NCBI GenBank assembly: GCA_946699065.1
Contig: CAMPDV010000040.1
Coordinates: 1,150,767-1,214,766, forward strand
Direction: 5' to 3'
DNA: 64,000 nucleotides
Source: Loxodes magnus
Lineage: Eukaryota > Ciliophora > Karyorelictea > Loxodida > Loxodidae
In this document: piece after piece, positions 1-49,270 of the stretch
How the letters are laid out: each line of letters starts with the position of its first letter
How positions within the stretch are numbered: the stretch's first letter is position 1
Position numbers and translations under genes: made by a program
The notes under the pieces: generated by a model
What the model was told of the DNA's origin: nothing
The model's input: the letters and a program-made list of their open reading frames with translations, nothing else
The model's database searches: none

Positions 1-504
1 AAGAAAGGTACCTGTAAGACCATGAGTGGTCACACTAGATCTGTAAATGCTGTGACTATATCCAGTGATTCAGAGTTCATCGTATCGGGAAGTTATGATG
101 AAACGGTGAGACTATGGGACGTCAAGACAGGTACCTGTAAAACCATGAGTGGTAACACATATTCTGTATTATCTGTGACTATATCCAGTGATTCAGAGTT
201 CATCGTATCGGGAAGTGATGATAATACGGTGAGACTATGGAACGTCAAGACAGGTACCTGTTAGACCATGAGTGGTCACACATATTCTGTAAGATCTGTG
301 GCTATATCCAGTGATTCAGAGTTCATCGTATCGGGAAGTGATGATTATACGGTGAGACTATGGGACGTCAAGACAGGTACCTGTAAGACCATGAGTGGTC
401 ACACTAGTTATGTATTATCTGTGGCTATATCCAGTGATTCAGAGTTCATCGTATCGGGAAGTGATGATTAAATGGTGAGACTATGGGACGTCAAGACAGG
501 TACC
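1..504 (+). pseudogene. WD40 array open segment 1 (about 4 blades, left edge)
   Basis: This segment is read in the frame of position 22 and stays open when TAG (262-264) and TAA (469-471) are Gln. It ends at the first 1-bp deletion, where the usual TGT-AAG has lost its first T (504/505). It is the 3' part of a segment that begins outside the window. No start or N-terminal domain is visible. Confidence 0.55.
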
Positions 505-3500
505 GTAAGACCATGAGTGGTCACACTAGATCTGTATTATCTGTGGCTATATCCAGTGATTCAGAGTTCATCGTATCGGGCAGTCATGATTATACGGTGA
601 GACTATGGGACGTCAAGACAGGTACCTGTAAGACCATGAGTGGTCACACTAGATCTGTAAATGCTGTGACTATATCCAGTGATTCAGAGTTCATCGTATC
701 GGGAAGTGATGATAATACGGTGAGACTATGGGACGTCAAGACAGGTACCTGTAAGACCATGAGTGGTCACACTAGTTATGTATTATCTGTGGCTATATCC
801 AGTGATTCAGAGTTCATCGTATCGGGAAGTGGAGATAAGACGGTGAGACTATGGGACGTCAAGACAGGTACCTGTAAGACCATGAGTGTTCACACTAGAT
901 CTGTAAATGCTGTGACTATATCCAGTGATTCAGAGTTCATCATATCGGGAAGTGATGATTATACGGTGAGACTATGGGACGTCAAGACAGGTACCTGTAA
1001 GACCATGAGTGGTCACACTAGTTTTGTATTATCTGTGGCTATATCCAGTGATTCAGAGTTCATCGTATCGGGAAGTGGAGATAAGACGGTGAGACTATGG
1101 GACGTCAAGACAGGTACCTGTTAGACCATGAGTGGTCACACAGATTCTGTATTATCTGTGGCTATATCCAGTGATTAAGAGTTCATCGTATCGGGAAGTG
1201 ATGATTATACGGTGAGACTATGGGACGTCAAGACAGGTACCTGTAAGACCATGAGTGGTCACACAGATTCTGTATGATCTGTGACTATATCCAGTGATTC
1301 AGAGTTCATCGTATCGGGAAGTTATGATGAGACGGTGAGACTATGGGAAGTCAAGACAGGTACCTGTAAGACCATGAGTGGTCACACTAGATCTGTAAAT
1401 GCTGTGACTATATCCAGTGATTCAGAGTTCATCGTATCGGGAAGTGATGATTATACATTGAGACTATGGGAAGTCAAGACAGGTACCTGTAAGACCATGA
1501 GTGGTCACACTAGTTATGTATATGCTGTGACTATATCCAGTGATTCAGAGTTCATCGTATCGGGAAGTGATGATAATACGGTGAGACTATGGGAAGTCAA
1601 GACAGGTACCTGTAAGACCATGAGTGGTCACACAGATTCTGTATTATCTGTGACTATATCCAGTGATTCAGAGTTCATCGTATCGGGAAGTGATGATAAT
1701 ACGGTGAGACTATGGGACGTCAAGACAGGTACCTGTAAGACCATGAGTGGTCACACATATTCTGTAAGATCTGTGGCTATATCCAGTGATTCAGAGTTCA
1801 TCGTATCGGGCAGTGATGATAATACGGTGAGACTATGGAACGTCAAGACAGGTACCTGTAAGACCATGAGTGGTCACACTAGTGTTGTATTATCTGTGGC
1901 TATATCCAGTGATTCAGAGTTCATCGTATCGGGAAGTCATGATTATACGGTGAGACTATGGAACGTCAAGACAGGTACCTGTAAGACCATGAGTGGTCAC
2001 ACTAGTTATGTATTATCTGTGGCTATATCCAGTGATTCAGAGTTCATTGTATCGGGAAGTGATGATTATACGGTGAGACTATGGAACGTCATGACAGGTA
2101 CCTGTAAGACCATGAGTGGTCACACATATTCTGTAAGATCTGTGGCTATATCCAGTGATTCAGAGTTCATCGTATCGGGAAGTTATGATGAAACGGTGAG
2201 ACTATGGAACGTCATGACAGGTACCTGTAAGACCATGAGTGGTCACACATATTCTGTAAGATCTGTGGCTATATCCAGTGATTCAGAGTTCATCGTATCG
2301 GGCAGTCATGATTATACGGTGAGACTATGGAACGTCAAGACAGGTACCTGTAAGACCATGAGTGGTCACACTAGTTATGTATTATCTGTGGCTATATCCA
2401 GTGATTCAGAGTTCATTGTATCGGGAAGTGATGATTATACGGTGAGACTATGGGACGTCAAGACAGGTACCTGTAAGACCATGAGTGGTCACACTAGATC
2501 TGTAAATGCTGTGACTATATCCAGTGATTCAGAGTTCATCGTATCGGGAAGTGATCATACGGTGAGACTATGGGACGTCAAGACAGGTACCTGTAAGACC
2601 ATGAGTGGTCACACAGTTTATGTATATGCTGTGGCTATATCCAGTGATTCAGAGTTCATCGTATCGGGAAGTGGAGATAAGACGGTGAGACTATGGGACG
2701 TCAAGAAAGGTACCTGTAAGACCATGAGTGGTCACACTAGATCTGTAAATGCTGTGACTATATCCAGTGATTCAGAGTTCATCGTATCGGGAAGTTATGA
2801 TGAAACGGTGAGACTATGGGACGTCAAGACAGGTACCTGTAAAACCATGAGTGGTAACACATATTCTGTATTATCTGTGACTATATCCAGTGATTCAGAG
2901 TTCATCGTATCGGGAAGTGATGATAATACGGTGAGACTATGGAACGTCAAGACAGGTACCTGTTAGACCATGAGTGGTCACACATATTCTGTAAGATCTG
3001 TGGCTATATCCAGTGATTCAGAGTTCATCGTATCGGGAAGTTATGATGAAACGGTGAGACTATGGGACGTCAAGACAGGTACCTGTAAGACCATGAGTGG
3101 TCACACATATTCTGTAAGATCTGTGGCTATATCCAGTGATTCAGAGTTCATCGTATCGGGAAGTGATGATTATATGGTGAGACTATGGGACGTCAAGACA
3201 GGTACCGTAAGACCATGAGTGGTCACACTAGATCTGTATTATCTGTGGCTATATCCAGTGATTCAGAGTTCATCGTATCGGGCAGTCATGATTATACGGT
3301 GAGACTATGGGACGTCAAGACAGGTACCTGTAAGACCATGAGTGGTCACACTAGATCTGTAAATGCTGTGACTATATCCAGTGATTCAGAGTTCATCGTA
3401 TCGGGAAGTGATGATAATACGGTGAGACTATGGGACGTCAAGACAGGTACCTGTAAGACCATGAGTGGTCACACTAGTTATGTATTATCTGTGGCTATAT

Positions 3501-48400: not shown

Positions 48401-49270
48401 CATCGTATCGGGAAGTGATGATAATACGGTGAGACTATGGGACGTCAAGACAGGTACCTGTAAGACCATGAGTGGTCACACAGATTCTGTATTATCTGTG
48501 GCTATATCCAGTGATTCAGAGTTCATCGTATCGGGAAGTTATGATGAAACGGTGAGACTATGGGACGTCAAGACAGGTACCTGTAAGACCATGAGTGGTC
48601 ACACAGATTCTGTATTATCTGTGGCTATATCAAGTGATTCAGAGTTCATCGTATCGGGAAGTGATGATAATACGGTGAGACTATGGGACGTCAAGACAGG
48701 TACCTGTAAGACCATGAGTGGTCACACAGATTCTGTATTATCTGTGGCTATATCAAGTGATTCAGAGTTCATCGTATCGGGAAGTGATGATAATACGGTG
48801 AGACTATGGGACGTCAAGACAGGTACCTGTAAGACCATGAGTGGTCACACAGATTCTGTATTATCTGTGGCTATATCCAGTGATTCAGAGTTCATCGTAT
48901 CGGGAAGTGATGATAATACGGTGAGACTATGGGAAGTCAAGACAGGTACCTGTAAGACCATGAGTGGTCACACTAGATCTGTAAATGCTGTGACTATATC
49001 CAGTGATTCAGAGTTCATCGTATCGGGAAGTGATGATAATACGGTGAGACTATGGGACGTCAAGACAGGTACCTGTAAGACCATGAGTGGTCACACTAGT
49101 TATGTATCTGCTGTGGCTATATCCAGTGATTCAGAGTTCATCGTATCGGGAAGTGGTGATAATACGGTGAGACTATGGGACGTCAAGACAGGTACCTGTA
49201 AGACCATGAGTGGTCACACTAATTAGGTTTGATCTGTGGCTATATCCAGTGATTCAGAGTTCATCGTATC
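36406..49270 (+). pseudogene. WD40 array open segment 14 (about 104.6 blades, right end)
   Basis: This is the second very long open segment, with no frameshift for about 12.9 kb. It is the part of the array closest to the WD40 gene and the most similar to it, rich in DS-LSVA blades with TCA-AGT, in YYVA blades and in DDN blades. Two units have Leu for Trp30 (RLLDV, near 37,858 and 45,238). It ends with AAT-TAG-GTT-TGA (Asn-Gln-Val-Trp in this code) at about 49,221, then one last blade that breaks down after position 49,270. No terminal domain follows in frame that resembles the end of the neighbouring gene. It is therefore either a truncated gene or a non-coding array. Confidence 0.5.
39642..45545 (+). 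repeat. 24-unit higher-order repeat (2 x 2,952 bp)
   Basis: Blocks beginning at 39,642 and 42,594 share the order of about their first twenty blade types, and a third start of the same motif lies at 45,546, again 2,952 bp on. The two blocks differ near their right ends, where one continues into VHSRTV units and the other into DS and RS units. Confidence 0.85.

Follow-up and report, generated by a model that had tools for sequence, protein, structure and literature searches.

Introduction

The closest described relatives of the element reported here are the HNWD receptors HET-D, HET-E and HET-R of Podospora, which carry WD40 repeats of high internal conservation (PMC1805685, PMC2873952, PMC12222747). 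As described in PMC1805685, HNWD codons 7, 9, 25 and 27, flanking the conserved codons 8 and 26, are under strong positive selection, one codon pair is placed in the d-a loop and the other in the b-c turn, both on the top platform of the propeller, and pseudogene loci with intact WD arrays have been proposed to take part in exchange. Diversity at hotspot sites is also reported for 305 Highly-Repetitive WD40 proteins, 50% of them bacterial and 36% fungal, in a paper whose main text mentions neither ciliates nor Tetrahymena nor Paramecium (PMC5587647). The present analysis concerns a 64,000-bp stretch of DNA from the karyorelict ciliate Loxodes magnus (contig CAMPDV010000040.1, positions 1,150,767 to 1,214,766 of the forward strand; the whole stretch is called the window), in which a long tandem array of WD40-blade units is followed by a gene encoding a WD40 propeller. 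With good probability, the array is satellite DNA composed of the blade module that is found in a large family of receptor-like genes with diversified propellers.

The macronuclear (MAC) assembly of L. magnus is reported to comprise 706 Mb, to be read with translation table 27, to have introns that are very short and to contain 231 Mb of tandem repeats and more than 30,000 elements classified as long interspersed nuclear elements (LINEs). The species is reported to lack extensive DNA elimination (PMC11441545), and it should therefore be possible to follow arrays and genes in both nuclei. WD40 proteins are not mentioned in the main text of the same paper. A literature search, with supplements outside its scope, found no paper on WD40 in Loxodes, and no Loxodes title was among the papers matched for ciliate WD40 proteins with high internal conservation and diversifying selection.

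A blade array with the properties of satellite DNA

The array was divided as follows, with positions counted from the first base of the window.

1–49295, plus strand: array of 401 tandem WD40-blade units (GH...KTMS), each of 123 bp, resembling a satellite; period of 123 by Tandem Repeats Finder (TRF), units by cyclic alignment
397–36419, plus strand: 13 units sharing one 1-nt frameshifting deletion (unit alignment)
31993–48842, plus strand: stretch containing every unit that is identical to blade 2 of the neighboring gene, 16 in total (unit indices 260–396)
49212–49360, plus strand: decayed right edge of the array, in which no closing blades were seen

The units showed 93% DNA matches in TRF and 170 of the 401 were distinct in the cyclic alignment, 214 of them falling in exactly duplicated runs of 3–10 units. 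Leftward of the window, the array was unbroken in every sampled stretch down to contig position 1,120,800, with 81 unit cores per 10 kb in each of four stretches (L014, L015, L064 and L065), which gives a length of at least 79 kb (contig position 1,120,800 to ~1,200,061); further units were present at 1,100,000–1,109,999. The frameshifted units started at positions 397, 3099, 15890, 16381, 18102, 19700, 21544, 23142, 25970, 27199, 29412, 31133 and 36298, and the part of the array from ~36.4 to 49.2 kb was free of frameshift.

A 24-base core of the unit gave 400,816 exact matches across the assembly (705,730,643 bases in 7843 contigs) and a control gave 0, setting an exact-match floor of 49 Mb or 7% of the assembly. 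The core was exact in 707 of ~970 units from three sampled stretches of two arrays, and the corrected estimate was ~550,000 units, equal to 68 Mb or ~9.6% of the assembly; the overall share of roughly 7–10% may be distorted by assembly error in repeats. A search of viral contigs with one 24-mer returned 0 exact matches.

Variants outside the highly variable (hot) codons of the window array were in the ratio of 28 nonsynonymous (N) to 12 synonymous (S), close to the neutral expectation of 29.7 : 10.3 (p = 0.59). The same was true for all sampled array stretches (56:20 vs 57:19, p = 0.79). A nonsynonymous to synonymous rate ratio (omega) of 0.3 or less was rejected for the window array (p = 0.002) and an omega of 0.5 was not (p = 0.10). 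The array is therefore long, homogeneous, tandem, of high copy number and neutral in its background variants, as is typical of satellite DNA, with weak constraint possible. Because of the frameshifted units, the edge decayed without closing blades and the background substitutions fitting neutrality, the array was read as satellite DNA, which it probably is, rather than as a protein-coding receptor. TAA, TAG and TGA codons in register, of which 79 were counted in 400 units (40 being TGA at site 7), are Gln and Trp in code 27 and, because the genome is read in this code, they could not be used as proof of a pseudogene.

Variation is concentrated at predicted top-face sites of the blade

Amino-acid entropy was calculated for 386 gap-free units of the 401, after dropping 13 units with the 1-nt deletion, one with a 3-nt deletion and the last partial unit. 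Sites were numbered from the GH that opens the blade. Sites 4, 5, 7, 8, 10, 23, 25 and 31 held 79% of the entropy, with 2.27 bits at site 7, 2.24 at site 23, 2.04 at site 4, 1.91 at site 25, 1.15 at site 5, 1.14 at site 8, 0.91 at site 31 and 0.87 at site 10. An earlier sequence-only reading of the window had named exactly these eight as the variable sites, and every allele that it listed was present in the array. Asp24, which it had described as fixed, was retained in 382 of 386 units, and the positions that it had called almost constant reached at most 0.33 bits (site 13).

The combinations of letters had also been likened to shuffled modules, which agrees with the linkage found among 162 unique gap-free units: sites 4–10 formed one block and sites 23–25 another, with z between -1.4 and 2.7 for the 10 cross-block pairs. 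When copies were counted (all 386 units), the cross-block values rose to z of 2.9 to 13.6. The codon alleles at the eight variable sites were separated by 33 N and 3 S steps, a count that is circular in part, since amino-acid entropy had served to select the sites, and the argument for selection rests instead on publication-defined sites and on gene blades. Rare codon alleles were about twofold denser at hot codons (2.00 vs 1.06 per codon elsewhere). Targeted hypermutation of the hot codons was considered and found no support, as their letters, judged by eye, had no single-base bias.

HNWD codons 7, 9, 25 and 27 align with sites 5, 7, 23 and 25 of the Loxodes blade, around V6 and D24. The mean entropy of these four sites in the array was 1.89 bits vs 0.39 for all sites (permutation p = 4e-5). 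All four belong to the five most variable sites of the array, which bears out the proposal that fungal HNWD genes vary at comparable positions. The hotspots R1-2, R1 and D-1 as given in PMC3419727 correspond by definition to sites 5, 7 and 23.

A single-sequence structure model was obtained for the C-terminal part of the window gene (420 residues, predicted template modelling score of 0.74). The predicted local distance difference test (pLDDT) was 90 or higher for 184 of the 420 residues, chiefly in the propeller, and below 50 for the tail and the last part of blade 7. Strands a-b-c-d were present in blades 1–6, with blade 7 partly below a pLDDT of 50. In the model, sites 1–5 lay between strands d and a, sites 6–11 in strand a, sites 12–16 between a and b, sites 17–22 in strand b, sites 23–25 between b and c, sites 26–31 in strand c and sites 32–36 between c and d. 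The mean entropy in the array was 0.78 bits for the d-a turn and 1.41 for the b-c turn vs 0.15 for a-b and 0.11 for c-d; for the genes, the corresponding values were 1.23 and 2.13 vs 0.30 and 0.51. In this model, the variable sites are thus mostly at the d-a and b-c turns and at the start of strand a, and the opposite-face loops (12–16 and 32–36) are nearly constant in the array, as expected if variation were directed to the top face of the propeller.

A search for propeller homologues, in which 8000 candidates were scored and the best 120 listed, and a control set of WD40 relatives were used for comparison. The control set comprised 143 relatives with aligned units, 119 of them with at least 7 units and 47 of these with an identity of at least 0.6 (542 units). 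In the 47 repetitive proteins, sites 23, 7, 5, 4 and 25 were the most variable, and these are also the top five of the array, which therefore follows the site pattern of a class already known. The correlation over all 35 sites was moderate (Spearman 0.35, p = 0.04), and among the remaining variable sites of the array, site 10 ranked 11th, site 31 12th and site 8 20th of 35. The same five sites also led the variability in blades of the family genes described below, in which site 10 reached only 0.45 bits. Because of these low ranks and the near-invariance of site 10 in genes, sites 8 and 10 look linked to site 7 rather than variable as contacts, and the suggestion that variation is focused on predicted ligand-contact residues appears to hold for sites 4, 5, 7, 23 and 25 but not for these two.

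The window gene belongs to a large family

The gene to the right of the array was annotated as follows.

56959–59547, plus strand: gene in code 27, with TAA and TAG as Gln and TGA as Trp or stop
56974–57105, plus strand: RING-like motif C-x2-C-x15-C-x-C-x2-C-x2-C-x12-C-x2-H, by Cys/His spacing
58300–58476, plus strand: pentapeptide-repeat segment (PF00805, E = 1.4e-9)
58504–58626, plus strand: blade 1, the second half of which opens the homogenized core
58627–58995, plus strand: blades 2–4, exchangeable cassette
58996–59390, plus strand: blades 5–7, family-specific closing blades, with in-frame TGA at 59209 (blade 6 Trp) and 59323
59410–59439, plus strand: putative mini-intron GTAAG...TAG with an approximate end; the frame is open unspliced too

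The encoded protein has a RING-like N-terminus, a long Gln-rich middle part, pentapeptide repeats and a WD40 propeller, for which seven WD40 stretches were found, one for each of seven blades. The RING-like part scored below the cut-off for zf-RING_2 (E = 0.01, 16.5 bits vs 27.3), and residues 1–470 had 0 homologues at E 0.001 among 6034 candidates.

Related genes were sought with a query composed of the pentapeptide segment and blade 1. All 150 scored candidates, of 44,355 first-look candidates, were matches. The assembly contained 678 matches of a degenerate DNA pattern of 24 bases derived from the pentapeptide segment, and one match of its backward control; the 678 matches include alleles and broken copies, and 33 loci were examined, comprising the 30 best matches together with the window gene, L009 and L011. 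RING-like Cys/His spacing was found at the N-terminus in 30 of the 33 and the kinase motif HRDLK in three (L011, L029 and L039). Pfam was applied to the upstream 500 codons of 28 loci in one frame (without L009, L011, L018 and L020) and to 454 codons of the window gene. In this set, a kinase was confirmed for L029 (E = 6e-62) and was absent from the one frame scanned for L039, and no RING above the cut-off, no NACHT and no B-box was detected. Damage was noted by eye in some loci: L020 was cut by a contig end, L025 and L027 lost the frame within the propeller, and L037 and L039 had fewer blades. In 29 of the 33 loci, a GTAAG...TAG junction of variable length, likely a mini-intron, preceded the conserved segment TDWNKVYADYG.

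The blade 6 Trp codon was TGA in 30 of 31 motif matches among the 33 loci. In 90 gene blades, Trp at contact sites was always written as TGA (22 of 22: five at site 5, 14 at site 7 and three at site 23) and never as TGG, and Trp30 was always TGG (71 of 71). The standard code and ciliate code 6 were ruled out by TGA at the blade 6 Trp and at in-frame variable sites. A second subtype of blade, with LRLYNI replacing VRLWDV, was observed in L022, L042 and other loci, and Tyr stood for Trp30 in 15 of 92 blades. A lone three-unit blade fragment without a gene was noticed on contig C2 near position 248158 (L010), ~16 kb from the L009 gene.

Among the 30 best matches, 18 lay on contigs of at least 150 kb, and 11 of these were less than 50 kb from a contig end (29% expected, p = 0.004). 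Moreover, 17 of the 18 were oriented toward the nearer end (p = 1e-4). The end-biased genes may mark subtelomeres, or merely satellites located downstream of genes.

Selection and homogenization in the gene blades

Proportions of nonsynonymous and synonymous differences (pN and pS) were estimated by counting methods, with 95% intervals for pN/pS from a bootstrap over 32 loci. The 90 gene blades were picked by a motif over sites 11–21, two misaligned blades of 92 having been dropped. At sites 5, 7, 23 and 25, pN/pS was 2.85 (2.34–3.37), and at the 30 other sites it was 0.27 (0.17–0.37). In a second set, blades were taken by position instead of motif from 25 loci with a common layout (found in 27). 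In this set, blades 2–4 had a pN of 0.52–0.54 and a pS of 0.19–0.21 at the four sites, and a pN of 0.02–0.05 and a pS of 0.05–0.11 at non-hot sites. Non-hot pS in the remaining blades was 0.41/0.25 (blade 1), 0.16/0.31 (blade 5), 0.35/0.27 (blade 6) and 0.32/0.56 (blade 7).

The pentapeptide segment, compared in 28 loci, had a pN of 0.119 and a pS of 0.615. Its dN/dS of ~0.10 indicates that the family consists of constrained proteins. The synonymous divergence of blades 2–4 was roughly one seventh of that of this segment, and from this pS valley it follows that the blades are exchanged or homogenized between loci. Among 90 gene blades, 88 distinct top-face combinations were counted; of eight pairs of sites tested for linkage, 7-8 (z = 20) and 4-7 (z = 4.4) were linked. 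The diversified recognition surface postulated by the sequence-only reading is thus supported, more strongly by the family genes, with their pN/pS of 2.85 vs 0.27, than by the array, whose frameshifts, decayed edge and neutral background argue against its being a recognition protein itself.

Blades shared by the array and the neighboring gene

Over 123 bp, blades 2 and 3 of the window gene had 16 and 12 identical counterparts, respectively, among the units of the window array, and the longest exact match between gene and array was 215 bp. In stretches farther left, no unit was identical to blade 2 and two were identical to blade 3. For blade 4, the nearest array unit differed by 2 nt, both in the variable codons 4 and 5. 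None of the 86 blades from other loci equalled any unit of three sampled stretches from two arrays, and 0 of 90 blades were exactly shared between two loci. The exact identity of blades 2 and 3 to units of this array implies a recent exchange between the array and the neighboring gene.

The copies of blade 3 were located, in 11 of 12 cases, within array units 5–196 and were never adjacent to copies of blade 2. The window array and the array of contig C4 had no top-face combination in common, and among the 88 combinations of the genes, five were present in the window array and one in the C4 array. Judged from these sequences, the arrays are local expansions with letters of their own.

Interpretation and alternative explanations

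According to the preferred explanation, the array is satellite DNA derived from the blade module of the gene family. In the loci examined, a fixed frame, composed of the RING-like or kinase N-terminus, the pentapeptide repeats and blades 1 and 5–7, surrounds the exchangeable cassette of near-identical blades 2–4. The cassette is homogenized between loci, with a consensus common to cassette and arrays, and the top-face codons (5, 7, 23 and 25, also 4) have an excess of amino-acid changes and are most likely kept diverse by selection. The propeller may serve as the sensor of a recognition protein, binding a partner on which the N-terminus would act as an effector, either like a ubiquitin ligase or as a kinase. 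New specificities could appear when recombination brings blades with other letters into the cassette, in the manner of fungal HNWD receptors, and the biological role might be the recognition of self and non-self, of parasites or of prey. The arrays would be mainly non-translated by-products of the recombining blade pool and possibly also donors.

Several observations weigh against this explanation. The choice of blades by a motif over sites 11–21 lowers pN there. At conserved sites, the gene blades contained many replacements (53 N : 28 S vs 61 : 20 under neutrality, p = 0.04), the N:S ratios of genes and arrays did not differ significantly (Fisher p = 0.30), and the pairwise pN/pS of arrays (0.30, 0.55 and 0.35) was near the 0.27 of genes, a closeness that a few common synonymous variants probably explain. 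Breaks of the tetrad affected eight of 90 gene blades and 31 of 386 window units, so the window array was no worse than the genes; in the other sampled array stretches, 45 of 314 and 58 of 252 units were affected. Blade 4 of the window gene was also 2 nt from a blade of another gene, thus equally near to gene and array, and 14 of the 86 blades of other loci differed from a sampled array unit by at most 2 nt. The effector assignments are open to the objection that the RING is recognized by Cys/His spacing with Pfam below the cut-off, and that among the three kinase loci Pfam supports L029 only, L011 being outside the scan and L039 having no match in the frame scanned.

As to why the array exists, we incline slightly to a selfish or neutral satellite, in which a unit captured by unequal crossing-over spread without function and the site pattern is a fossil of selection on genes. 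The neutral N:S of the background, the repeated spread of a single frameshift together with the duplicated runs covering 214 units, the decayed edge and the about 0.4–0.55 million copies all fit this explanation. It does not account for the exact sequence identity between blades of the window gene and units of its array, which needs a recent exchange.

The same identity speaks for a silent library, in which arrays are kept as donors and family genes, adjacent or distant, take blades from them by gene conversion, comparable to silent cassettes that supply an expression site. Two of the three cassette blades of the window gene match array units 7 kb upstream in the same orientation vs 0 of 86 elsewhere; the third departs from its nearest unit at variable codons only, and the low synonymous divergence of the cassette would also be accounted for. 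Yet the array may have been seeded from the gene, units of the blade 2 and blade 3 types are never neighbors in the window array, and the two arrays, having no combination in common, hold only five and one of the 88 gene combinations. Furthermore, not every gene was seen to have an array beside it: the 9.9-kb stretches L009, L011 and L012 hold three, five and three unit cores, respectively, all of them the gene's own. Gene conversion from dedicated donor arrays is therefore regarded as rather unlikely. Its extension to the whole genome, with a silent library of about half a million units re-lettering hundreds of outward-facing receptor genes at contig ends, with effectors of the ubiquitin-ligase-like or kinase type, and with Trp contacts written as the ambiguous TGA, is speculative and is considered unlikely; by analogy, such a library might form a combinatorial repertoire comparable to gene-conversion antibody or VSG systems.

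That the sites vary merely by drift, through lack of constraint and not through favored variation, is very improbable: loops are tolerant in many WD40 proteins, but the pN/pS at sites 5, 7, 23 and 25 is well above 1 and the opposite-face loops are nearly constant in the array. The least probable explanation, a single giant gene encoding a WD40 protein with hundreds of blades, can appeal to in-register TAA, TAG and TGA being sense codons in code 27 and to the ~36.4–49.2 kb without frameshift, but is contradicted by the 13 frameshifts that arose through one spreading deletion, by the decayed end without closing blades, by the abrupt left edge of the C4 array without an N-terminal domain (judged by eye) and by N:S being neutral in the right-hand frameshift-free stretch too (12:3, p = 0.77; 15 variants only).

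Flanking sequences

The flank to the right of the array has ~25% GC and contains two further features.

50509–51329, plus strand: decayed, frame-broken reverse transcriptase fragments between the array and the gene (RVT_1, E = 4e-9 on 50913–51329)
60818–64000, plus strand: 80-bp satellite reaching the contig end

The reverse transcriptase fragments are presumably LINE-like; the part from 50509 to 50748 had no match in the Pfam search. Between 49200 and 64000, no Rfam match was obtained at the gathering score. The satellite at the contig end is purine-rich and resembles a 79–80 bp satellite present in seven of 15 sampled contig ends (L050, L051, L053, L055, L057, L061 and L063), several of the sampled ends having been picked for family matches nearby and one end reading N. 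No telomeric repeat was recognized at the 15 contig ends examined.

Comparison with known systems

Among solved structures, the chain closest to an array piece was 2ymu, a WD-40 repeat protein (E = 4e-148), a likeness established by sequence comparison alone. TRIM-type RING ligases, characterized by a RING, a B-box and a coiled coil, have a long middle region after the RING and a recognition domain at the C-terminus. The window gene has the same order, from the RING-like motif through a long middle part to a C-terminal recognition domain, but differs in having no B-box by Pfam, a WD40 propeller placed after pentapeptide repeats and a RING below the Pfam cut-off. Variant antigen systems, e.g., the variant surface glycoproteins (VSG) of trypanosomes, use silent donor arrays. 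Shared with these are the large family, the many related non-gene copies and the genes near contig ends pointing outward.

High internal identity and diversity at predicted hotspots connect the family with the Highly-Repetitive WD40 proteins. With respect to the internal identity of at least 0.7 over contiguous repeats that defines this class, the array has 93% DNA matches and the genes are near-identical in blades 2–4 only; unlike in that class, a gene family is accompanied here by a blade satellite.

The likeness to HNWD genes extends to near-identical WD40 blades under concerted evolution (here a pS of 0.05–0.11 in blades 2–4 vs 0.62 in the pentapeptide segment) and to positive selection at four corresponding top-face codons (pN/pS of 2.85, by counting only). 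In fungi, HNWD receptors control non-self recognition and cell death and have a NACHT NTPase domain ahead of the WD40 repeats. Unlike in HNWD, no NACHT or HET was found here, the propeller being preceded by a RING-like or kinase N-terminus and pentapeptide repeats; three of the seven blades form an exchangeable cassette, the loci are far more numerous, a satellite covers tens of Mb, and the host is a ciliate, not a fungus.

For the ciliate host, the architecture, the cassette within a seven-blade frame and the satellite, no earlier description was found in the literature searched. The link to a satellite that amounts to roughly 7–10% of the assembly allows a test of whether a coding repertoire is supplied by tandem DNA. 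A diversified repetitive WD40 sensor is a known kind of protein, known from fungi, with repetitive ones from bacteria. Its recurrence in a ciliate, in apparently hundreds of loci with different effectors, suggests that the repetitive propeller has been used recurrently to make variable recognition proteins.

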